From the IMG/VR virus record IMGVR_UViG_3300011113_000591, positions 1 through 27,740 of that record: 27,740 nt of DNA; one strand, 5' to 3'. Position numbers and translations under genes: made by a program. The notes under the pieces were generated by a model. It was not told the origin of the DNA, did no database searches, and worked only from the letters and a program-made list of their open reading frames with translations. This stretch comes from a virus. Below are positions 10,046-24,990 of the stretch, piece after piece; within the stretch, counting starts at the first letter, position 1, and every line of letters begins with the position of its first letter.

Positions 10046-13000
10046 ATGAAAAAAATAGTAGATTTTTTTCCTTATTTCGATCCCACCGGAAAGGAAATTC
10101 TTGAATTAAGAATTAATATGTTAAAAGATTATGTTGATGAATTTATAATCTGTGAGTCTAATAAAACCCAAAGTGGTATTCCTATTGAATACAATCTAAG
10201 AAAGAGAATTAAAGAATTAAATTTACCCGAAGAAAAAATAAAGATTATAGATTTAAATATACCTGAAGATTCTGATTTAATAATTGAAGAAATTGATATA
10301 TATAATTGTGCAGAAGATTGGAATATTGAATCTAGTTTAAATAAAAATAATTTAAATTCATTGCGGGGAAGAGTAAGAGAAAGAATGCAAAAAGACTCTC
10401 TTTTACTTGTTTTAGACGATTATGATGATGACACAGTATTTATTCACAGTGACTCAGATGAGATTATAAAACCTAAAGCTATTGAATGGGTTTCTTCTAT
10501 GTGTAAACAATATCAAGAGACTATTATAAAAATTCCATTAGTACATCTTGAAGGAAGAGCAGATCTTAGAGTCTATTTTGAAAATGAAAATATTCCTAGG
10601 CCTTGGGCCGGGGGTATGTTTTTTGCTACAAAATCACAACTAAAAATATCAACACCCACCCAAATTAGATCTTGTGTTTTTAATAAATTTCCTATAGATC
10701 ATTTAACACAAGATGGAAATATGATACAAGATTTAGGTTGGCATTTTAGTTGGATGGGAAATGGGGAAAAAAGAATAGAAAAATCTAAATCTTTTTGTCA
10801 TTATGATGATATATCTAAATCTTTAATTGGTAATAAACATAATTCCGAAGAATTCCAAAATAGACTACTAGAAAACACCCCCGAAGAAGGAAAAATACCC
10901 CCTTCAGGAATTAAAAACACTATTTTAAAAAAATACCCAATAGAAAATCTTCCAAAAGAAATCTTTGAACTGCCTAGAGTTAAAAATTTTTTACTTCCTA
11001 ATTTAACTGAATTTGATTGGGGTCCCTTTAATAATGAAAAAAATAAACCTCACAGAGGTTTTATTGAAAATGAAATTGAATATAGTATGAATAAAGGGAT
11101 ATCATTAATATGCGCTTGTAAAAATAGACTTAATGCTTTAAAGATATCATTAGCCTCTTGGCTTGAAAATAAAAACATTCAAGAAATTATAATAGTAGAC
11201 TGGTCATCAGACTTACCTATACAGGATAATATAACTCTTGATTCTAGAATAAAGGTAATTAGAGTAGAAGACCAAATATATTTTAATCAACCCCAACCCT
11301 TAAATTTAGCATTAAAGCTTTGTGCATACGACACAGTTATAAAAGTAGATTGTGATTATATATTTAATACATACGAAGGATTTAATTTTTTTGAAAAGTA
11401 TAATATAGACGATTACTGTTTTGTTTGCGGCGAGACAGATGAACCTAGCTCCCCTGCTGATCCTTGCTTTAGGTACTTGAGGGGCCTACTTTACATAAAA
11501 AAGAAATTTTTAGAAGAAGTAGGAGGGTGGAATGAGAATTTTAGAGAGTATTATGGGGGGGAAGATAGCGAAATTGAACTAAGGCTAACCAACTATGGAC
11601 TAGAAAAGAAAAAAATTAAATTAGATTATACTATAATCCATATCCCTCACTTATCAAAAGAGCGAATTACTAATTTTGAAGGGCATAATCTTCCAGAACC
11701 TAAAGAAAAATTAAGAACTATGTTAATTGATAACTGTTTAGCATATAATCCTATGTCAAATATACCTCTTAATGAGACTGAATGGAGCTGGGAAACCAAT
11801 ATAAAATCTTTATCTGAATTATCATCTGTTTATAATATTATAAAAAACCAAATCACGACATATTATATATCTCCATTAACAAAATGGAACATTATTCAAA
11901 ATAGTCTCCAATTATTTACAGCCCAAATAGTAATAAATAAATTAGAAGGATTTCCTACAATATATTGTGCTAGTCTTGAAGAAAGTATAGATAGAAGAGA
12001 AAAACTAAATATACAATTTGCAGAATATGGGTTAAAACCTAAATATTTACTTTCAAAAAGATACCATGAATGTGATGATATTATAGTAGGAACCTCTTTT
12101 TTTTTGGTTGATGATAAAATAAAAGGATGCGCTGTATCCCATTTAAAAATGATAAAAGAGTGGTATGATGCAACTAATGAAGAATATGGATTTTTCTGTG
12201 AAGATGATTTATCTTTAGAAACAGTTAAATACTGGAATTTTACTTTTCAAGAATTTATAAATCAATTGCCCACAGATTGGGAAGCTGTGCAAATGTGCAT
12301 TATTAGAGACACATTTGATGAAATCAAACTAAGAAAAAGACAATTAGATGATTGGGCGGCTACGGCTTATGTTATTAAAAGAGAATATGCAAAGAAAATT
12401 ATTGATTACTATATAATCCAATCCAAAAATGCTACAGAAAGCACATCTTCTCAACAAGAATCTATAGCATATAAATTAGAAGTCAATAGATGGCCCCAAG
12501 TACAACCTCTTGTAGAACACATAATTTTACTTAATACTGGGGTAGTATACTGTTTTCCCTTATTTATAGAAAATATTAATAATCCTACTACTTCTAGTGA
12601 ATCCCAGGCTCCTAATCATATTACTTCTGCTAATTTTATTAAAAATTGGTGGGAAAACCAATATATAATGTCATCTAACAATGTAATACCTAAAGAAATA
12701 TCTTTAAATATTGATCAAAATTTTGAACAATTCCCCAAAAAATTAATGGAACATTTTTACCATAGTATTGGGGAAAACTGGTTTGATTATCAAGATCTTT
12801 ATTCTCAAATGGTAAATTACTTCCCTGATAAAGCACATTTTATAGAAGTAGGATCTTGGAAAGGACGAAGTGCAGCTTATATGGCTGTAGAAATAATTAA
12901 TTCTCAAAAACACATAAAATTTGATTGTATAGACACTTGGGAAGGCTCCGAAGAACATATTACCCCAGAAAGCTCAGCTTTCAATCCGGAATTATTAGAA

Positions 13001-13336
13001 GATAAAAATTGGTTATATAAATTATTTTTAACCAATATAACCCCAGTAAATCATACTATTAATCCTATTAGAGCAACATCTTTAGAAGCATCTAAATTAT
13101 ATCCTAATAGATCCTTAGATTTTGTTTTTATTGATGCCTCTCATGATTATGAAAATGTAAAAGCTGATATAGAAGCTTGGTATCCCAAAGTTAAAATAGG
13201 GGGATATATTGGGGGACACGATTATCCATTTTGGGATGGTGTCAAAAAAGCTGTAGATGAATTTTTACAGCAAGATTTTATTAAAAAAGAAAATATTACT
13301 ATAAATAATATTAGTACTTGGCTCTATAAAAAATAA
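10046..13336 (+). CDS. Four-domain GT17-GT2-GT25-methyltransferase fusion
   Basis: This 1096-residue protein appears to carry four enzyme modules. (1) Residues 1-255 resemble GT17: KIVDFFPYFDPTGKEILELR, then YVDEFIICESNKTQSG, and the metal-binding-type FIHSDSDEI at 132-140. (2) 351-560 is GT2-like: GISLICACKNRLNALKISL, a DCD at 435-437, and GGWNENF-x-EYYGGEDSE at 493-509, as in galactosyltransferase-type C-termini. (3) 637-800 is GT25-like: IYCASLEESIDRREKL, GCAVSHLKMI at 694-703 and EDD at 719-721. (4) 905-1096 is a class I SAM methyltransferase of the Methyltransf_24 kind: FIEVGSWKGRS at 932-942 and FIDASHDYENV at 1028-1038. No signal peptide or membrane segment is visible, so it acts in the cytosol. 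The substrate is unknown; the domain calls are from motifs. A T9 run lies at 12097-12105. It sits between tail-completion and sheath genes, a site for an accessory insertion. Confidence 0.82.
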   Translation: MKKIVDFFPYFDPTGKEILELRINMLKDYVDEFIICESNKTQSGIPIEYNLRKRIKELNLPEEKIKIIDLNIPEDSDLIIEEIDIYNCAEDWNIESSLNKNNLNSLRGRVRERMQKDSLLLVLDDYDDDTVFIHSDSDEIIKPKAIEWVSSMCKQYQETIIKIPLVHLEGRADLRVYFENENIPRPWAGGMFFATKSQLKISTPTQIRSCVFNKFPIDHLTQDGNMIQDLGWHFSWMGNGEKRIEKSKSFCHYDDISKSLIGNKHNSEEFQNRLLENTPEEGKIPPSGIKNTILKKYPIENLPKEIFELPRVKNFLLPNLTEFDWGPFNNEKNKPHRGFIENEIEYSMNKGISLICACKNRLNALKISLASWLENKNIQEIIIVDWSSDLPIQDNITLDSRIKVIRVEDQIYFNQPQPLNLALKLCAYDTVIKVDCDYIFNTYEGFNFFEKYNIDDYCFVCGETDEPSSPADPCFRYLRGLLYIKKKFLEEVGGWNENFREYYGGEDSEIELRLTNYGLEKKKIKLDYTIIHIPHLSKERITNFEGHNLPEPKEKLRTMLIDNCLAYNPMSNIPLNETEWSWETNIKSLSELSSVYNIIKNQITTYYISPLTKWNIIQNSLQLFTAQIVINKLEGFPTIYCASLEESIDRREKLNIQFAEYGLKPKYLLSKRYHECDDIIVGTSFFLVDDKIKGCAVSHLKMIKEWYDATNEEYGFFCEDDLSLETVKYWNFTFQEFINQLPTDWEAVQMCIIRDTFDEIKLRKRQLDDWAATAYVIKREYAKKIIDYYIIQSKNATESTSSQQESIAYKLEVNRWPQVQPLVEHIILLNTGVVYCFPLFIENINNPTTSSESQAPNHITSANFIKNWWENQYIMSSNNVIPKEISLNIDQNFEQFPKKLMEHFYHSIGENWFDYQDLYSQMVNYFPDKAHFIEVGSWKGRSAAYMAVEIINSQKHIKFDCIDTWEGSEEHITPESSAFNPELLEDKNWLYKLFLTNITPVNHTINPIRATSLEASKLYPNRSLDFVFIDASHDYENVKADIEAWYPKVKIGGYIGGHDYPFWDGVKKAVDEFLQQDFIKKENITINNISTWLYKK

Positions 13337-13439: not shown

Positions 13440-15146
13440 ATGGCAGAAACTTTAATATCTCCCGGCGTACTTGCAAGAGAAAACGATTCATCATTTGTAA
13501 CCCAACAACCCGTAACTGTTGGAGCAGCTATTATAGGACCCACAGTTAAGGGACCAGTTGAAATTCCCACTGTAGTAACTACATACTCTGATTATGTAAA
13601 TAAATTTGGTACTACATTTTTAAGTGGTGGTCAAGAATATAGCTATTTAACATCTATTTCGGCTTATAATTACTTCCAAAATGGAGGTACTTCATTATTA
13701 GTAGCTAGAGTAGCTTCAGGATCATTTGCTCCTGCTTCTGCTTCAATTTTAGCTAGCGGCAGTACTGTAGCCTTTACTTTAAAAACCATTTCTGAGGGCA
13801 CTATAATGAACAATACGGGTGCTACAGGATCTAATGGTACTTTAGTAAGTGGTTCAGCTGATAATGTAAGATGGCAAATTACAAACCGCGATACAGGATC
13901 AGGAACATTTAGTTTATTAATTAGACAAGGTAACGACACTACTACAGAACCTGTAGTATTAGAAACTTGGACTAACCTTTCATTAGACCCAACTCAACCT
14001 AATTACATATCTAGAGTAATTGGTGATAGCTACCAAGACTATAATTCAACTGAAAACTATATTCAAGTAAATGGTACTTTCCCTAACCAATCAAGATATG
14101 TTTATGTAAGTGCTGTTAATAGCCCAACTCCTTACTATTTTGATAATAACGGAACCCCTCAAAACCAATATACAAGCTCCATTCCAGTAAACGCTAGTGG
14201 AACTTTTGGTGGAGCTACGGGTGATTTATTTTATGGTGGTGGTGCTAAATTTTATAACAATATATCGGGTTCTACTACTAATATTCAAGGTATTAGAGCA
14301 GCAGACTACAATAACATGATTTCTTTAATGGCTAATCAAGACGATTATAGATTTAATGTTATTACAATCCCAGGTTTAACTATAACTGATAATTCTACTC
14401 AAGTAACTACTTTAGCTAATACTGTTCAATCACGTGGTGATGCTATTTTAGTAACAGATACTTATTATTTTGGTGCTCAGTTATCACAAACTATAACTGC
14501 TGCCTCTAGTATTAATAATTCATATGCTGCAACTTATTGGCCTTGGTTACAAACAATAGACCCAGGAACAGGGCAATTAGTTTGGGTACCTGCTTCTACA
14601 ATGATTCCAGGTGTGTATGCATTTAACGATAGTGTATCTGAGCCTTGGTTCGCACCTGCTGGTATTAACAGAGGTGGTTTAAATACAGTAGTTAGAGCAG
14701 AAAGAAAATTATCTCAAACAAATCGTAATGATCTTTATGTAGGTAATGTTAACCCAATTGCTACGTTCCCGGGAACAGGTGTTGTAGTATACGGACAAAA
14801 AACATTACAGAAAAAAGCATCTGCACTTGATCGTGTAAATGTTCGTAGATTATTAATTGCTCTTAAGTCTTATATTACTCAAGTAGCAAATAACTTAGTA
14901 TTTGAACAAAACACAATTGCAACAAGAAATCAATTCTTGAGTCAAGTTAATCCATATCTCGAATCAGTACAACAACGTCAAGGTTTGTATGCATTTAGAG
15001 TAATTATGGATGATTCAAATAATACACCTGATGTAATCGATAGAAATCAGATGGTAGGTCAAATTTATCTACAACCAACCAAAACTGCTGAATTTATTTA
15101 CCTCGATTTCAATATTACTCCAACAGGTGCTACATTCCCTGCGTAA
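13440..15146 (+). CDS. Tail sheath protein, gp18-like
   Basis: The 568-residue product begins MAETLISPGVLARENDSS, then VGAAIIGPTVKGPVEIPTVV, the typical opening of contractile sheath proteins (SPGV-x-x-x-E, GP-x-x-GP-x-x-P). ISAYNYFQNGGTSLLVARV at about 71-89 is the family's a-Y-F-x-NGG-x-x-L-x-v-v-R element. The C-terminus (ALDRVNVRRLLIALKSYIT, then LVFEQNT and FRVIMDDSNNTPDVIDRN) is the conserved sheath handshake domain. The sheath polymerises around the tube and contracts on infection. T4 gp18 has 659 residues, so some variable middle domain is reduced. No Shine-Dalgarno precedes the start; the codon context is AAAAACATGG. The tube gene follows 39 bases later. Confidence 0.94.
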   Translation: MAETLISPGVLARENDSSFVTQQPVTVGAAIIGPTVKGPVEIPTVVTTYSDYVNKFGTTFLSGGQEYSYLTSISAYNYFQNGGTSLLVARVASGSFAPASASILASGSTVAFTLKTISEGTIMNNTGATGSNGTLVSGSADNVRWQITNRDTGSGTFSLLIRQGNDTTTEPVVLETWTNLSLDPTQPNYISRVIGDSYQDYNSTENYIQVNGTFPNQSRYVYVSAVNSPTPYYFDNNGTPQNQYTSSIPVNASGTFGGATGDLFYGGGAKFYNNISGSTTNIQGIRAADYNNMISLMANQDDYRFNVITIPGLTITDNSTQVTTLANTVQSRGDAILVTDTYYFGAQLSQTITAASSINNSYAATYWPWLQTIDPGTGQLVWVPASTMIPGVYAFNDSVSEPWFAPAGINRGGLNTVVRAERKLSQTNRNDLYVGNVNPIATFPGTGVVVYGQKTLQKKASALDRVNVRRLLIALKSYITQVANNLVFEQNTIATRNQFLSQVNPYLESVQQRQGLYAFRVIMDDSNNTPDVIDRNQMVGQIYLQPTKTAEFIYLDFNITPTGATFPA

Positions 15147-15185: not shown

Positions 15186-15674
15186 ATGGCAATATTAGAT
15201 CCAAACGAAATATTTTTTACCGCCTTTGAACCCAAACAGGCTAACCGATTTATCATGTATATTGATGGTATTCCGGCTTATGAAGTTAAAGGAGTAGGTC
15301 AAATAACTGTTCAACAAGGTACAGTCCGTTTAAACCATATTAATATACAACGTTATGTTAAAGGGATTACTACATGGCAGCCCATTCAATTTACATTATT
15401 CGATCCTATTACCCCATCAGGCGCACAAGCAGTAATGGAATGGGTACGTTTACATCACGAATCTGTGACAGGTAGAGATGGATATTCTGATTTCTACAAG
15501 AAAGATTTAACATTTGATATATTAGGCCCTGTAGGTGATATAGTATCTGAATGGATTATTAAAGGTGCGTTTATTACTGAAGCTAATTTTGGTGAATACA
15601 GTTATGATACTGAAAACCAAGCTGTAAATATCCAAATGACTGTTCAACCTGATTACTGTGTATTGAACTTCTAA
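15186..15674 (+). CDS. Tail tube protein, gp19-like
   Basis: At 162 residues it is almost the same size as T4 gp19 (163). The sequence runs KQANRFIMYIDGIPAYEVKG near the start, a block with VRLNHINIQRYVKGITTWQP at about 47-66, then QFTLFDPITPSGAQAVMEWV and LHHESVTGRDGYSDFYKKDL. It ends with a beta-rich C-terminus finishing in VQPDYCVLNF. This matches the tail-tube fold of T4-like phages, whose stacked hexamers form the DNA channel inside the sheath. Its own promoter motif and the terminator after it imply high, separate expression, as expected for a tube protein needed in large amounts. Confidence 0.93.
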   Translation: MAILDPNEIFFTAFEPKQANRFIMYIDGIPAYEVKGVGQITVQQGTVRLNHINIQRYVKGITTWQPIQFTLFDPITPSGAQAVMEWVRLHHESVTGRDGYSDFYKKDLTFDILGPVGDIVSEWIIKGAFITEANFGEYSYDTENQAVNIQMTVQPDYCVLNF

Positions 15675-15788: not shown

Positions 15789-16064
15789 ATGGCAACATTT
15801 TATTTTGTATTAGGTATGGTTGTAGTCTTGGTAATAGCCGAGGTTATAGCTGCATTTATTGTAATTAAAGCAATAAATTCATTAAAAGAACAAGCAAGAG
15901 ATTGCGACACTCAATTTACTAACATTTATCGTAGAATGGATGATGTACACCGAGACACAGATCAACAATTCCAAGAGGTTTATCGACAACTCGATTCTCG
16001 ATTAGATAAACTAGAAGCTAGATTAAAAGGAACTCAAGGTTCAAAACAAGTTATAAAAGGATAA
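15789..16064 (+). CDS. Membrane-anchored coiled-coil protein
   Basis: The 91-residue protein has one hydrophobic segment at residues 4-28 (FYFVLGMVVVLVIAEVIAAF onward), followed directly by Lys and a charged helix (KEQARDCDTQFTNIYRRMDD, then QQFQEVYRQLDSRLDKLEAR) likely to form a coiled coil. The tail is basic (KGTQGSKQVIKG). No lipobox is seen. An N-terminal anchor with a short N-terminal side and a long coiled C-terminal domain could place it in the inner membrane, as a holin-associated or superinfection-type protein or simply as a virion-assembly factor. None of these is shown by sequence. It lies between the tube terminator and the gp26-like gene. Confidence 0.68.
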   Translation: MATFYFVLGMVVVLVIAEVIAAFIVIKAINSLKEQARDCDTQFTNIYRRMDDVHRDTDQQFQEVYRQLDSRLDKLEARLKGTQGSKQVIKG

Positions 16065-16129: not shown

Positions 16130-16867
16130 ATGACCGAATTTAAACTCCCTACTGAAACTATTTTATTACCTTCCCAAGGTAAAATCTACCCCAGTGATAA
16201 TCCACTTTCTTCAGGCAAAGTAGAAGTAAAGTATATGACAGCCCGAGAAGAAGATATTCTTACTAATCAAAACTATATAAAACAGGGAACAGTAATAGAT
16301 AAACTTCTTCAATCTCTTATTGAAACCAAAATTAATTATGATGACTTGTTGATAGGAGATAAAAATGCTATTATGATGGCAGCTCGTATATTAGCATATG
16401 GGGGCAATTATGAATTTGAGTATGGGGGGGTTTCACAAAATATAGATTTATCCCTTATAGAACCTAAACCAATTCACCCTGATTATGAAAAAGCAGTAAG
16501 AAACGAATTTACTTATACTTTACCTCATTCTAAAAATGAAATTAAATTCAGATTACTTACCCATGGGGACGAAATAAAAATAGAAAAAGAAATAAAAGGT
16601 TTACAAAAAATAAATAAAGATCTTCAAAATGAAGTAACTGTTAGATTAAGCCAGATGATTATTTCAATTAATGGATTAACCGAAAGGAAAGATATTAATG
16701 ATTTTGTAAATAATTATTTTTTAGCTAAAGATGTTAGAGAATTTAGAAAATATTATAGTGAACTTACCCCTGATTTAAATTTTAAAATTTCTCTTGTTAA
16801 TTCTAATGGTGTAGAGGAGGACACTAATTTACCTATTGGGCTTAACTTTTTTTGGCCTGACATCTAA
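16130..16867 (+). CDS. Baseplate hub / tail assembly protein, gp26-like
   Basis: The 245-residue product opens LPTETILLPSQGKIYPSDNP, then SSGKVEVKYMTAREEDILTN at about 27-46, then VIDKLLQSLIETKINYDDLL and IGDKNAIMMAARILAYG. This is the conserved pattern of the T4 gp26-type baseplate family as it appears in cyanophages (LPS-x-G-x-x-Y, L-x-SG-x-v-e-x-k-y-M-T-a-reEdiLTn). The rest is helical with an acidic tail. T4 gp26 has 208 residues. It lies two genes after the tube and just before the tape measure, exactly where many phages place tail assembly chaperones that use a ribosomal frameshift. A T7 run near the end is a possible shift site into the next ORF. The normal stop is at 16865-16867. Confidence 0.75.
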   Translation: MTEFKLPTETILLPSQGKIYPSDNPLSSGKVEVKYMTAREEDILTNQNYIKQGTVIDKLLQSLIETKINYDDLLIGDKNAIMMAARILAYGGNYEFEYGGVSQNIDLSLIEPKPIHPDYEKAVRNEFTYTLPHSKNEIKFRLLTHGDEIKIEKEIKGLQKINKDLQNEVTVRLSQMIISINGLTERKDINDFVNNYFLAKDVREFRKYYSELTPDLNFKISLVNSNGVEEDTNLPIGLNFFWPDI

Positions 16868-17123
16868 TGATAGGATCAATATATTTAGTCAAATCCACGA
16901 AATAGTATTTCATGGGCAGGGAGGGTATAATTGGGAAACAATATATAATATGCCCATATGGTTAAGAAATTTTACATTTAATAAACTTAAATCCTATTAC
17001 GAAACCCAAAATAAATCCCAAGATGATATAGTAAAAGAAAATATTCAAACTCTTAAATCATCGAGTCCCCCAATTAAAAGCTCTAAAACTCCTACATACG
17101 TTACTAAAGCTATAAAAAAATAA
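16836..17123 (+). CDS. Overlapping downstream ORF, probable frameshift extension of the gp26-like gene
   Basis: This 95-codon stretch lies in the +1 (equivalently -2) frame relative to the gp26-like gene and overlaps its last 32 bases. It has no ATG near its start: the only candidate is TTG at 16836, and the frame is open upstream only to a TAG at 16812. The protein reads DRINIFSQIHEIVFHGQGGY, then a segment with MPIWLRNFTFNKLKSYYE, and ends in a Lys/Ser/Thr-rich tail. MPIWLRNFTFNKL resembles small T4-like proteins after gp26, including gp51-type hub assembly factors, and the whole resembles a G/GT pair. A shift at T7 (16847-16853) would give a fusion of about 330 residues. Independent initiation is also possible. 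Low confidence in function, better in reality. Confidence 0.6.
   Translation: MGLTFFGLTSNDRINIFSQIHEIVFHGQGGYNWETIYNMPIWLRNFTFNKLKSYYETQNKSQDDIVKENIQTLKSSSPPIKSSKTPTYVTKAIKK
16847..16853 (+). other. Candidate programmed frameshift site (T7)
   Basis: AAC TTT TTT TGG in the gp26-like frame: a homopolymer of seven T lies in the 52-base overlap between the TAG at 16812 and the stop at 16867. Slippage by -2 or +1 here leads into the downstream ORF (GGC CTG ACA). Confidence 0.5.
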
Positions 17124-17146: not shown

Positions 17147-19468
17147 ATGGCTAAGCAAAATAGTATAGCAAATGAACTAAAAGAGTTTAATAAAGAAGCT
17201 ACTTCTTTAGCCTCAGCTCTGCAAGATGTAACAAAAGCATTAAAAGAAAATGCTCAAACCGCTTCTAGATTTACAGGAGAAACCGCAGAAGCTTATTTAG
17301 AATCTGGTAAAGATGCAATAAATTTAGCTAAACAATTACAAGGATATACTTCTAAACAACTTAAAAATAAACAAGAAGAAAATAAATTTCAAAAGTTAAT
17401 AGATAAAACTCAACAAAATCAATCAAGGACTTTAGCTAGAATATCCTATTTAGAAGATAAAAGATTAAAAGCTTCTAAAGAAGAACAAGCATATATTGAT
17501 AAAGCCTTAAAAGGTCTCTCAGCTCAAGCTGACCATATTGATGATAGTTTAAAAAGTGCTAAAAAACTCCAAAAGGTTTTTGAAGATATTAGTGCTAAAA
17601 CTAAATTCTTTGATAATATGGCTGAACTAGTAAATAGTATTCCTATATTATCATTAGTATTAAAAGAATTCCAAAATGCTTCAGATGCAGCTCGTGAGGC
17701 TGCTATTAATGGAAAAAATGCTTTTTTAGCGGGTGCCAAAGAATTTATAAATGCTTTAGGCAAATTAAGTTTAAGTCTTATTATAGGTAAAGCAGTAGGT
17801 GCTATAGTAGATGCACAAAAACGCACAGTGCAAATAAGTAGACAATTAGGAGTCTCAAATGCCGAATCTGCTCAACTATATAATAATATGGTAAATAGTT
17901 CTTTAGCATCTAAAGAATTATATTTTAATGCTGAAAGATATGCTGAAGCCCAAAAAACTATAAATGAAAGTTTAGGAACTAATGTTACTTTAAGTGAAGA
18001 TGCTGCCCAAAACTTTTCAGCTTTAGTTTATAGATTAGGTCTTTCTGCTGATGAAGCTAACAAAGTAAATGAATACACTAAGCTTATAGGAATTAATGCT
18101 ACAGATTTTACAGCCCAAGTTACAGTCCAAACTAAATTACTTAATGGGCAGAGAAAAATACAATTAAGTAACCAAACTATTTTAAAAGAAATATCTAATG
18201 CCTCTGCTCGTCTCCAAGTAACTTATAAAGCACAAAATAAAAGCTTAATAGATGCTGCATATTCAGCTAAAGAATTAGGTATGAATTTATCTGGGTTAGA
18301 AAAAATTCAAGCTTCATTACTTAATTTTGAAGAATCAATTTCGGCTGAATTGAGTGCAGAATTATTAACTGGAAGAAATCTTAATTTAGAACGAGCTCGA
18401 TTTTTTGCATTAAGTAATAATATAGCAGGAGTAGCTGAAGAATTAAAAAACCAAAATATAACTGCAACTAATTTTGGTCAAATGAATTACCTCCAGCAAG
18501 AAGCTATAGCAGGGGCGTTCGGGATGCAAGCTAATGAATTAGCAGAATCTTTAAGATTCCAAGAACAAATATCTAAACTTTCAGAAGAAAGTGGATATAG
18601 AGATGCTCAAAGTTTAGAAGATTTAAAACAAAGAATTTTATTAAAAGCTAAAGAAAAAGGAAGTATTCAAGAGGCTTTAACAGATGTAGGAGATGAGGAA
18701 CTTAGAAATCAACTAGAAGCTCTTACTGTAGAAGAGCAAATGAATGAAAAAATTATAAAAGAACAAGAAAAACTTATACAAGCTATAGGGCCCGAAGGGT
18801 TACAATTAACTCTTAATACATTGAATAAATCTGTAAGTGGGTTAATTACTGCTACCTATGTTCTAGCTGCGGCTTACGGAATAGGGCAATTAGGAAGAAT
18901 GATGGGGGGGTTAGGAAAAACTACCCTTCCTTCAGGGGCCTATGTTAGAGGAAATCAAGCATTTAGTAGCACTGGGATGGTTTTATCAGGGGCAGCTCGT
19001 AATAGTACTATAGGAGCTGCTAATAAAGTAAATCCATTTCGTTTTAGAGGAGCAGGAGCAGGTGCTTTAGGAATAGGGGGAGCCGTAGCAGGTAGTATGC
19101 TAGGGGGGGTTGCAGGTAGTGCTTTAACTGGAGCAAGTTTAGGAAGTATGTTTGGCCCATATGGTGCTTTAATTGGAGGAGCTTTAGGAGCCGGATATGG
19201 TCTTTTAAATGCTAATGATTTTATAATTAAACCTGATAGTAAACAAATTATTGTACCTTCCGCTGATGATACTATAATGGGGGTAAATGAAAAGAAAATA
19301 TCCTCAAAATCTGCAACCTCTGTTAATGATGATAGATTAAATAGAATAGAACAGGCAATTGAAAGAATGATTCAAGATAAACGTACACCAATTATGGTGC
19401 AAACAACAGCACGAATTAATTCAAGAGAATTATATAAAGCAATGGGTGTAGAATCATACCATAGCTAA
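17147..19468 (+). CDS. Tape measure protein
   Basis: The 773-residue protein is mostly long alpha-helix. Residues 1-160 are Lys/Glu/Gln-rich coil (NELKEFNKEATSLASALQDV, then later KLIDKTQQNQSRTLARISYL), with more helical stretches to about 590. A glycine/alanine-rich hydrophobic block follows at about 630-695 (GAGAGALGIGGAVAGSMLGG and onward), likely membrane-active, and then a charged C-terminus with RINSRELYKAMGVESY. This layout of long helices with a hydrophobic C-terminal segment is that of tail tape measure proteins, which set tail length and help DNA entry. T4 gp29 is 590 residues, so the tail may be longer. It follows the gp26-like/frameshift pair directly, as tape measure genes usually do after their chaperones. 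Confidence 0.85.
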   Translation: MAKQNSIANELKEFNKEATSLASALQDVTKALKENAQTASRFTGETAEAYLESGKDAINLAKQLQGYTSKQLKNKQEENKFQKLIDKTQQNQSRTLARISYLEDKRLKASKEEQAYIDKALKGLSAQADHIDDSLKSAKKLQKVFEDISAKTKFFDNMAELVNSIPILSLVLKEFQNASDAAREAAINGKNAFLAGAKEFINALGKLSLSLIIGKAVGAIVDAQKRTVQISRQLGVSNAESAQLYNNMVNSSLASKELYFNAERYAEAQKTINESLGTNVTLSEDAAQNFSALVYRLGLSADEANKVNEYTKLIGINATDFTAQVTVQTKLLNGQRKIQLSNQTILKEISNASARLQVTYKAQNKSLIDAAYSAKELGMNLSGLEKIQASLLNFEESISAELSAELLTGRNLNLERARFFALSNNIAGVAEELKNQNITATNFGQMNYLQQEAIAGAFGMQANELAESLRFQEQISKLSEESGYRDAQSLEDLKQRILLKAKEKGSIQEALTDVGDEELRNQLEALTVEEQMNEKIIKEQEKLIQAIGPEGLQLTLNTLNKSVSGLITATYVLAAAYGIGQLGRMMGGLGKTTLPSGAYVRGNQAFSSTGMVLSGAARNSTIGAANKVNPFRFRGAGAGALGIGGAVAGSMLGGVAGSALTGASLGSMFGPYGALIGGALGAGYGLLNANDFIIKPDSKQIIVPSADDTIMGVNEKKISSKSATSVNDDRLNRIEQAIERMIQDKRTPIMVQTTARINSRELYKAMGVESYHS

Positions 19469-21625: not shown

Positions 21626-21934
21626 GTGAATCGTTATTTAAACATACCTATTATTAAGTCATTAAGTGGGAAACAGATATATGCCACATCTCGTTACCCT
21701 GAAATACCTTTGTCTGTAAATGACATATATGTTTACACCACACAAGGTGATAGATACGATTTATTAGCATTAAATTACTACGGGGATTCTTCATTGTGGT
21801 GGGTTATAGCTATTGCTAATCCTAATATTAGTTTAGGAACATTAGTTATACCTGAAGGTGTACAAATTAGAATACCCAGTAATGCAGTAAATATAATAAG
21901 TGAATTTAAATTAATTAACCAAATAGTTATATGA
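21626..21934 (+). CDS. Baseplate wedge protein, gp53-like (LysM-like)
   Basis: The 102-residue protein starts at GTG (21626), 5 bases after the previous stop. It contains VYTTQGDRYDLLALNYYGDS followed by SLWWVIAIANPN and ends near VIPEGVQIRIP. That order, GD-x-x-D-x-LA-x-x-YYGD-x-x-LWW-x-IA-x-AN then i-p-G-x-x-x-i-P, is the LysM-like pattern of T4 gp53 baseplate wedge proteins and of small tail proteins such as P2 gpX. At about half the length of T4 gp53 (196), it is a near-minimal version. The stop overlaps the ATG of the hub gene (ATGA), pointing to coupled translation and stoichiometric baseplate assembly. Confidence 0.75.
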   Translation: MNRYLNIPIIKSLSGKQIYATSRYPEIPLSVNDIYVYTTQGDRYDLLALNYYGDSSLWWVIAIANPNISLGTLVIPEGVQIRIPSNAVNIISEFKLINQIVI

Positions 21935-24900
21935 CCGGAAATATTGTAGGAGAACCAATAGATGAATTCGTAGCTAAACAAATAGATACCCGCCAAAAAA
22001 TATATGGGGGAGGATATAATAACATAAGAACCCCTCAACAATTAGTATTTTTTAACTCTAGAACATCTTTTGTTAAACTTCTATCTTCAGTAGATATAAA
22101 AGAAGATTTTAAACCAAATAGTGAAGAGTTAAAAGAAATAATAAAAGAATATAAGGGTAATAAATTAGCTCAAAATTTTATATTATTTAATGGAGTATCA
22201 TCTTTACCTACTACTACCCCTCCTTTTCTTAGTAGTTATTTACTTAACAATTATCAAAATTATGCCTATGGTATGGGTGGGTATGAGCAAGGTTTACGTC
22301 CTATGCCTGGCATTATTTCAATTAATGTAAAAAGTGAAACTAGAGGATCATTAAAAACCGCTACTATAAATTTAAAAGCCTGGAATAGGGTTCAATTTGA
22401 GATAATTGATGTTTTGTATTTAAGATTAGGATATACACTTTTATTAGAATGGGGTAATAATATTTATTTTGCAGACCCAACCACCCCAGATAAATTTGAA
22501 TCTACTCCCCTTAGCTTAGAAACTGATTTTCTACAACCCACAGGAGATAAAGTTGATTATGAAACTATATTAGAAAAAATACAAAATAATAGACAAATAT
22601 CATATGGTAATTATGATGCTTTGGTTGGGAGGATAGTTAATTTTACCTGGGAAGCTAATATTGATGGAAGTTATGACATTATTATAATACTAAGAAGTAT
22701 AGGAGATGTTATAGAATCTATAAAAGCTAATAGTTTAATAACAGATACTACACAAGTATCATTACCTACCTCTCCCCAAACAAATCCAAATCGTTTTCAA
22801 CGACTTAATGCAAATGCCGCTTCTGATAATACTAGAGTAGTTAATAAAAATGCTGAAATAAGTAAAGAGTTAGCTAATCAAAATATATTACTTGCAACTG
22901 ATATAAGTCCTTTAGAATTAGTTACTTCTACTGAAATAGGTAATGAATTAAATAAGGCTTTTTTTAACTTGAAGGGATTAGAAAAGGTTGTTTTAAAAAA
23001 AGATATTTTAGATCGGGTAGTAGCTTATAACGCGGATTGGGATAAAAGTACAACTGGAAACACATATATATCTCAAAAATATAATACTCCTTCTTCTAGT
23101 GATCCTTCTACAAGTGTTTCATCTATGGAGTGCTATATACGATTAGGATCTTTATTATATTTTATAAAAGAAAAAGTTATTTTTAAATATAAAAGTAAGA
23201 GTACTAAAAGTGCTTTAAAATTTGATTTAGATAATGATACAAACTTAATATATGATCCTAGAAATACTATAAGTTTTGACCCTACAGTTTGTTTAATTAA
23301 ACGTACATTTAAAAATAAAAATTCAAATGTTGAATATATATATGGTTCTTTATGTGATGATTTTGCATCTAGTTACAAAAATACAGCACATGTTTTAAAT
23401 ATATATGTAAATTTTAATTGTATAGCTTCATACTTAAACCCAGTTAATAATTCAACTGATGGTAGGGTATTGCTTATAGATTTTTTAAATTCAATTTTAA
23501 CTAATATAAGTAGAGCTTTAGGAGGGATAAATAATTTATATGCTTATATAGAAGAAGAAACTATTACTGTCAAGATTTTAGATCAAACCCCCCTTTATAA
23601 TAAAAAAGATATTTTAACAAAATTAAATAAAACTTCTTCTTTAATCCCCCCTATTATATTATTAGGATATACTTCTACTAGTGATGAGCCAAATATAGTT
23701 AAAACCAATTTTGTTAAAAATTTTAGTATTAAAACTTCTATAACTCCTCAATTAGCTAGTATGTTAACTATTGGTGCCCAAGCTCGTAGTTTAATAGTAG
23801 GAGAAGAAGCTACAGCTTTATCTACGCTAAATAATGGTTTAATTGATAGAGTTAAATATGAAGTTATAAATGCTGACGAAAAAGATAATGCTAATACTAA
23901 TATTGAGGTAAAATATCCTAATATTAGCAAGGCATTTTATACACAAAGAAATTCATTAGCATACATAAAACAAGATAACGAATATACGTCTAATATTCCT
24001 ACTTTTACTTATAATGATGTAACTAAATATACTCAAATACAAATAGATTTTATTAACTATAATCAATCTAAAGAAGCCATTAAATCCAAAACATCCTCAG
24101 GTCAAATTGGTTATATACCTGTTAGTTTAAATTTAGAATTAGATGGAATTTCAGGATTAAAAATTTACAATGGTTTAAATGTAGAAACTAGATTTTTACC
24201 ATCCCAATATCCTGATACTATGGATTTTATCATTATAAATTTATCTCATGATGTAATTAATAATGTATGGACTACTAAATTAGAAACTATTATGGTCCCT
24301 AAAGATCCAAATCCTACGGATGAAGAAGAAAATGTAAATGTTGAAATTAGTAGTGGTGGAGGAACAGTAAGCCCTGATACATTTAATACTTTAAAAGAAT
24401 TTTTTAATATTATATTAAAAGGAGAAAGTGCAAATTATAATAGTTATAATTGGTTTAAAAAAAGATCTCCTAATACAGGGAGGGAAGGATTAGTTTCTGT
24501 TATAAATCAAACTAATAAATCAAAGAATCTAATGCCTGAATTAGAAGAAAGATATATTAGTGATCTTACAATAGGAGAAATAAAAACATTTATGAATGCA
24601 AATTTTACAAAATCCCCATCCACCGGAAGAAATACTGAAGGACAAACCAAAAATCAATTATATGCTGTAGGACGTTATCAATTAACCCCTGTAACTTTTT
24701 ATAGTTTAACCCAAAGCAAAAAATCAGATGTTACGTTTAATCCTGCATTACAAGATGAATTAGGTAAAGCACTTTTAAAATCTAAACCATCTATTAATGA
24801 TTATTTAAATAATGGAAAGGGTTTAGGCAATGCCGTTGTAGGTTTATCCCAAATCTATTCTAGTATTCCAACAAATGCAAATAATAAAAGCTATTACTCT

Positions 24901-24990
24901 AATGAAACGGCAACAATATCTTTTGATACTGCTAAAAATGCTTTAGAAAAATTATATAGATCAATTCAAGCAAAAAAAATAACATTATAA
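21931..24990 (+). CDS. Baseplate hub protein with C-terminal lysozyme-like domain
   Basis: The 1019-residue product is a long beta-rich hub protein. Its first part holds [20 protein letters not shown], then [20 protein letters not shown] and [17 protein letters not shown], typical of hub proteins in T4-like environmental phages. The middle includes [11 protein letters not shown] and [13 protein letters not shown] and ends near [16 protein letters not shown] at about 760-780. From about 815 there is a different domain with [13 protein letters not shown], where Glu832 is a candidate catalytic residue, and [16 protein letters not shown] around 911-926, as in lysozyme or transglycosylase-like folds. 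I infer a gp27-gp5-like fusion: hub plus a peptidoglycan-cutting domain used at entry. No strong signal peptide is seen. The start overlaps the gp53-like stop. Confidence 0.72.

Follow-up and report, generated by a model that had tools for sequence, protein, structure and literature searches.

Comparative evidence for a +1 frameshift in a gp26-like gene pair of T4-like phages

Introduction

Phage tail assembly chaperones are known to use frameshifts of -1, -2 or +1 (PMC5009743), and in a 2016 review T4 stands as the exception to the G-GT frameshift rule (PMC5009743). T4 gp51 is essential, and its function is unknown (PMC3004832). A 2010 study found that cyanophage gp51 has only about 20% of the full length and matches just the C-terminus of T4 gp51, an observation that was left unexplained there (PMC3037559). 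With respect to +1 slippage, CUU, CCC and UUU were the best P-site codons in tests with RF2 (PMC10885494), and UUU_U is found in some RF2 genes (PMC5009743).

Here, we analyze a 27.7-kb stretch of viral DNA (27,740 nt; "the window"), a fragment of a T4-like phage that encodes a major head protein, PhoH, tail sheath and tail tube. Between its tail tube gene and its tape measure gene lie a gp26-like ORF and an overlapping ORF in the +1 frame. We conclude that these two ORFs are very likely one gene, decoded two ways via a +1 frameshift. The comparative support is strong, although the reading is inferred from sequence alone, with no protein, reporter or ribosome-profile data.

Results

Two overlapping ORFs in the window

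The features of the locus are listed in Table 1. An initial annotation of the window had described a downstream ORF without an ATG, open from 16815 and overlapping the gp26-like gene. This description held. The +1 frame opens right after a TAG (16812-16814) and closes at 17123, and its first ATG is codon 46 (16950), well within the conserved domain. A TTG at 16836, also in the +1 frame, had been overlooked; it is not conserved. The overlap before the zero-frame stop is about 50 nt and contains AAC TTT TTT TGG at 16844-16855, as claimed. Fusion of the zero frame to the post-slip +1 frame gives 330 residues, in line with the approximate length claimed, and the "T-like" extension would comprise the 89 residues encoded from about 16854 onward. 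The location directly before the tape measure gene also held, since the product of 17147-19468 resembles the annotated tape measure of phage immuto (BLASTP 93.6 bits, E=2e-23) and, by this similarity, is a tape measure itself. T7 alone is unremarkable, because nine start positions across the window carry it.

Table 1. Coordinates of the tail genes, the overlapping ORFs and the putative recoding elements in the window
Feature	Position	Strand	Remarks
Tail sheath	13440..15146	+	PHROG 23, E=5e-72
Tail tube	15186..15674	+	PHROG 4542 tail tube protein, E=6e-24
gp26-like ORF, zero-frame product, predicted short "G-like" form	16130..16867	+	245 aa; PF12322, PHROG 150, AF2 model
+1-frame ORF, 102 codons	16815..17123	+	+1 frame in 81/81 loci; no conserved start codon
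SD-like GGAGG	16816..16820	+	26 nt upstream of T run; role unknown
Putative slip site AAC TTT TTT TGG C	16844..16856	+	P-site UUU_U, A-site UGG, +1 codon GGC; T7 = 16847-16853
Zero-frame stop TAA	16865..16867	+	18 nt past run start; 15-24 nt in relatives
Tape measure gene	17147..19468	+	Directly downstream of the overlapping ORF pair

The upstream protein is a member of the T4 gp26 family

The upstream protein belongs to PF12322, the T4 gp26 family, which takes in both T4 gp26 and T4 gp51. Residues 26-241 match PF12322 (T4_baseplate) with 25.8 bits against a cut-off of 24.5, 11 of 24 aligned relatives match it at E<=0.01, and PHROG 150 (baseplate hub) is matched at E=1.3e-9. Its AF2 model (pLDDT 90.5) matches 51 BFVD entries at E<=0.001, and several of these are named as baseplate hub proteins. 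When 299 PDB chains were re-aligned, only 3klu (YqbN, Z 6.2) and 2ob9 (HK97 tail assembly chaperone, Z 5.4) reached Z>=2; we place YqbN among the XkdN-type tail chaperones. Both are phage tail proteins, and it is possible that the N-terminal domain resembles a solved tail-assembly chaperone. These structural matches extend over only about residues 1-95 and are of modest quality (Z 5-6, rmsd about 4 A). The two ORFs were folded separately, not as the 330-residue fusion; the T domain by itself yielded a helical AF2 model of low confidence that matched nothing in the PDB. Sequence searches of the PDB with the gp26 profile or T4 gp51 returned nothing useful.

The +1 arrangement is conserved

Searching IMG/VR with the second ORF returned at least 591 confirmed relatives, of which 80 were kept. 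In all 80, as in the window (81/81), the second domain is in the +1 frame relative to the gp26-like ORF, with a junction sequence that is essentially AACTTTTTTTGGCCTGAC. Conservation of the T run in relatives, which the initial annotation had proposed to check, was confirmed: all 80 carry the run or TTTCTTT in the same phase. The +1 relation is seen as well in 18 more distant loci. Because the run or TTTCTTT, its phase and the frame relation are shared by 80/80 relatives, and the frame relation by the 18 distant loci, the observation goes beyond chance. Residue conservation in the second domain sets in right after the slip (GLT..IHEIVFHGxGGYDWxTVYNMPIWLR).

The arrangement is not confined to metagenomic contigs. 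It occurs in the cultured Flavobacterium phage immuto (junction TTTCTTTGG) and Microcystis phage Mel-JY01, in Rhodothermus phage RM378 (junction CCTTTTTTTGGAA), in a 484-kb uncultured phage, and in contigs binned with bacterial or archaeal MAGs that are 29-67% identical. Genome annotation in practice misses or mis-annotates the second domain: in immuto it covers only 36 residues, from an internal ATG, and in Mel-JY01 the two ORFs carry only hypothetical labels.

The slip site

Run, flank and GGAGG counts refer to a sample of 52 non-redundant loci. The T run is exact in 46 of these and reads TTTCTTT in the other six. Where Asn precedes the run, its codon is AAC in 38/38 cases, compared with 31% AAC within the same genes. 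The base 5' of the run is C in 49/52, compared with 10% C at third positions, and is never T, which removes the -1 heptamer. In the -1 frame, moreover, a stop occurs four codons after the run begins in 51/52 loci. These flank comparisons ignore shared ancestry, and any formal probability drawn from them is not to be read at face value. The conserved CCT GAC that follows the run was left out of the count, since dual coding can explain it. The zero-frame stop lies outside the slip site, because its distance from the run varies among relatives (Table 1). We regard it as likely that the slip site is kept under selection as nucleotides, an inference that rests solely on the sequences.

The in-frame variants are informative about the direction of slippage. 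They include UUU UUU UGG, UUU CUU UGG, UUU UUU UAC, UUU UUU UUC (L169), UUC UUU CGG (L181), UUC UUU CGU (Streptococcus phage GXN1) and UUU CUA UUC (LR756508), and each permits +1 re-pairing of a tRNA from YUU to UUY. Within the close set, every locus permits such YUU_Y re-pairing, and an in-phase YUU with Y after it is retained in nearly all variants. The variants UUU CUU U, UUC UUU C and UUU C point to P-site +1 slippage rather than to a -2 shift or transcript slippage. The A-site codon is UGG in 51/52 loci and is inferred to be slow. In Listeria phage LIS04 (GAG TTT TTT AGT), the domain is in the +1 frame and the slip point is unclear. No conserved RNA structure was found, either by RNAalifold on the 52 loci or by shuffled-energy tests in six windows.

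A GGAGG element upstream of the run

GGAGG is present 23-32 nt before the run in 48/52 non-redundant loci (at 26 nt in 40/52), as opposed to 78/11532 background windows (0.7%). It occurs in two codon registers, GAG-GAG-G and GGA-GGG, which implies that it is kept at the nucleotide level. The likely hosts are Flavobacteriales, judging from immuto and the MAG bins, with the window's own host undetermined; the ribosomes of such hosts have a sequestered 16S tail (PMC9976891). Gene starts in the window have A/T-rich leaders from which a Shine-Dalgarno sequence is almost absent, as fits a Bacteroidia host, and the conserved internal GGAGG is therefore odder still. To our knowledge, no SD-stimulated frameshift acts at a spacing of 26 nt; known stimulators lie at 3 nt (RF2) or about 10 nt (-1).

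Two explanations of the element were rejected. It is not the start signal of the second ORF, as +1-frame stops fall between GGAGG and the run in loci that keep GGAGG. Nor is there a consistent link to phage-borne bS21, which is encoded in some relatives (L199, Mel-JY01; L200, LR756508; L201, G003) and was not found in immuto, RM378 and several other records.

Alternative explanations

The initial annotation had left the direction open as +1 or -2. Phage Mu uses -2 (PMC5009743). In a -2 shift, the peptidyl-tRNA would move back two bases on the U run, reaching the same frame with one extra Phe, and a pure T7 permits the necessary re-pairing. However, re-pairing would be poor at TTTCTTT (immuto, L015, L029 and others), at TTCTTTCGG (L181) and at TTTCTATTC (LR756508), all of which accommodate +1. 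A run permitting -2 is not kept in relatives, being broken at immuto-type, L181 and L084 sites. Relatives with a broken homopolymer (TTTCTTTGG; TTCTTTCGG; TTTCTATTC) thus settle the question for +1, and the -2 part of the claim failed; we consider such a shift very unlikely.

It is equally improbable that the second ORF is translated separately, from a non-ATG start or by re-initiation. In favor of this idea, the TTG at 16836 has GGAGG 15 nt to its 5' side, and some -1 relatives (described below) have coupled TAATG or TGATG arrangements. Against it, apart from the lack of conservation of this TTG, 22/83 loci have no ATG, GTG or TTG between the opening of the second frame and the conserved core, and in the others the possible starts are scattered. 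In 23/52 non-redundant loci, the 36 nt preceding the run contain a +1-frame stop, and several loci have one only 9-11 nt ahead of the run while retaining GGAGG and T7. Conservation starting exactly at the slip also argues against separate translation. Relatives with an ATG for the second gene and no homopolymer, which would have refuted the frameshift, were looked for, and no such refutation was met within the +1 clade.

Slippage of RNA polymerase on the T run, with the mRNA gaining or losing bases, is suggested only by the T7 homopolymer and is likewise very unlikely. Seven Ts are short for transcript slippage. Moreover, a C interrupts the run in immuto-type phages, and the run is absent in L084 and L181, yet the +1 arrangement is unchanged. 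Finally, homopolymers are prone to indel errors, but a sequencing error or pseudogene of one intact gene is all but excluded by the frame relation, which is shared by 80 contigs and by finished genomes of isolates (immuto, Mel-JY01, RM378).

The wider T4-like family

In other T4-like phages, this position is taken by an ORF in the -1 frame. It follows T_TTT_TTT or T_TTT_TTC in the jumbo phages RAS14, XacN1 and Paride, in the 595-kb phage LR756511, and also in Pelagibacter phage HTVC008M and Aeromonas phage ZPAH1; the latter two lack an ATG close to the junction. Because the downstream parts of the -1 phages align only weakly with one another, homology is firmest for the group of cyanophages, HTVC008M and ZPAH1. 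Searches of viral contigs with gp26 of RAS14 and of LR756508 gave no relatives. Among cyanophage-type loci, T_TTT_TTC is in the correct phase in 55/55 distinct sequences, and GAGG or GGAG lies exactly 10 nt upstream in 52/55, the classic -1 arrangement. With an ATG 5 nt beyond the stop, cyanophages could express the second domain in both ways; this ATG, however, stands alongside a perfect -1 site.

The two directions are told apart without exception by the base 5' of the run, which is U in 0/70 of the +1 loci and in 64/64 of the -1 loci. Since the -1 set was partly recognized by its T run, the clean count is that of the 55 cyanophage-type loci, for which frame and site were read separately. 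Overall, the comparison establishes a conserved frame, site, domain and phase, with one direction per clade.

Two genes, encoding a short gp26 and a long gp51, take the place of the overlapping pair in T4, 44RR, an Acinetobacter phage and EC-F2. A profile of the frameshift domain matches gp51 C-termini with 35, 24, 24 and 11 bits and gp26 with less than 2 bits; the best of 1600 shuffles scored 12, and the weakest gp51 match is therefore not significant alone. In phiM19 and RHph_I1_9, annotators have named the small ORF baseplate hub assembly catalyst, which is gp51's name. By comparison, the T4-like family likely does one job by a +1 slip, by a -1 slip or, in T4, with two genes.

Other observations on the window and related contigs

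Between the tail tube and gp26-like genes, 15789-16064 encodes a 91-aa protein with a membrane-like N-terminal segment and a probable coiled coil, for which PHROGs matches are weak. A 1096-aa ORF (10046-13336) amid the structural genes seems, by eye, to consist of several joined glycosyltransferase- or methyltransferase-like domains. The 1019-aa protein of 21931-24990 has a PHROG 90 "endolysin" match confined to residues 900-994, and this partial match suggests, tentatively, a hub protein that ends in a lysozyme-like domain. An ORF running to the contig end (25001-27739) is probably a tail fiber; it consists of a long collagen-like repeat (GTQGIQG-type) with a short globular interruption, and its remaining frames are spuriously open. 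Elsewhere, the 306-kb MAG contig NHDW01000006.1 (Methylococcaceae bin) contains the gp26 region twice (L178, L179), near both ends and with matching scores and junctions, which may reflect terminal redundancy of the phage genome or a wrong join.

Discussion

The programmed frameshift at T7 and the G/GT-type place and role that had been claimed for the locus are both supported by comparative evidence. In the mechanism we propose, most ribosomes would read 16130-16867 and produce the gp26-like tail assembly chaperone ("G"). A fraction would have peptidyl-tRNA-Phe on the second UUU (16850-16852), with the A site occupied by the UGG Trp codon, presumed to be slow. These ribosomes would move one base forward, re-pair on UUU (16851-16853) and take GGC (16854-16856) as the next codon, yielding a 330-residue "GT" protein with an extra 89-residue domain. 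Yeast Ty1 (CUU_AGG_C) similarly has GGC as its +1 codon (PMC5009743). By analogy with lambda gpG/gpGT (PMC5009743), both forms are probably tail-assembly chaperones, which would hold the tape measure and recruit tail tube subunits in a fixed ratio; T4 would make both products from separate genes. The slippage itself, its low efficiency with GT as the minor form, and the partners bound by each form are all inferred.

A bolder reading, which we favor by a narrow margin and put forward as a single claim, is that the T4 superfamily is no exception to G-GT. In this scenario, gp26 ancestrally had a frameshifted extension; switches between -1 and +1 came about largely via the base before the U run, where U allows -1 and non-U blocks it; T4 replaced frameshifting by the duplicated pair gp26 (G) and gp51 (GT); and a distant SD-like element serves the +1 lineage as a stimulator of a new kind, in hosts whose ribosomes largely ignore SD. 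If gp26 and gp51 are G and GT, then the T4 exception, the role of gp51 and the short cyanophage gp51 are all explained, and gp51's role becomes testable in the classical system. The family is also a natural setting in which to compare how phages alter the direction of programmed frameshifting. In the literature searched, no paper described frameshifting in gp26/gp51-type genes. Most subscription papers were outside the search, and because of this incomplete coverage we cannot claim priority for the gp26/gp51 reading.

How does the locus compare with known systems? Like bacterial RF2 (prfB), it has CUU_U or UUU_U in the P site, a predicted +1 slip and an SD-like element upstream, and it meets an RF2-like test of P-site re-pairing at +1. 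It does not meet the test of a UGA in the A site, where there is instead a Trp codon with the stop further downstream (Table 1), nor that of spacing, as the SD of RF2 lies 3 nt before the P-site codon and the GGAGG of this family much farther from the run. Lambda gpG/gpGT is similar in being an overlapping pair directly before the tape measure gene, and the upstream domain here may resemble the HK97 tail assembly chaperone. Of the features expected of a G/GT frameshift, the locus shows an overlap of two frames immediately before the tape measure gene, as well as a conserved slip site in that overlap and a second ORF without its own conserved start. The locus differs from lambda-type systems in its family (T4 gp26, PF12322) and in its inferred +1 shift at YUU_Y with UGG in the A site. 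Cyanophage gp26 and short "gp51" (P-SSM2, S-PM2) have the same two domains overlapping at a T run; unlike in the window, the shift there would be -1 at U_UUU_UUC, with an SD-like sequence 10 nt upstream and an ATG after the stop. The hub assembly chaperones gp26 and gp51 of T4, unlike the pair in the window, are encoded by two separate genes, one short and one long. Even so, both are PF12322 proteins, and the C-terminus of gp51 matches the T domain of the frameshifting relatives.
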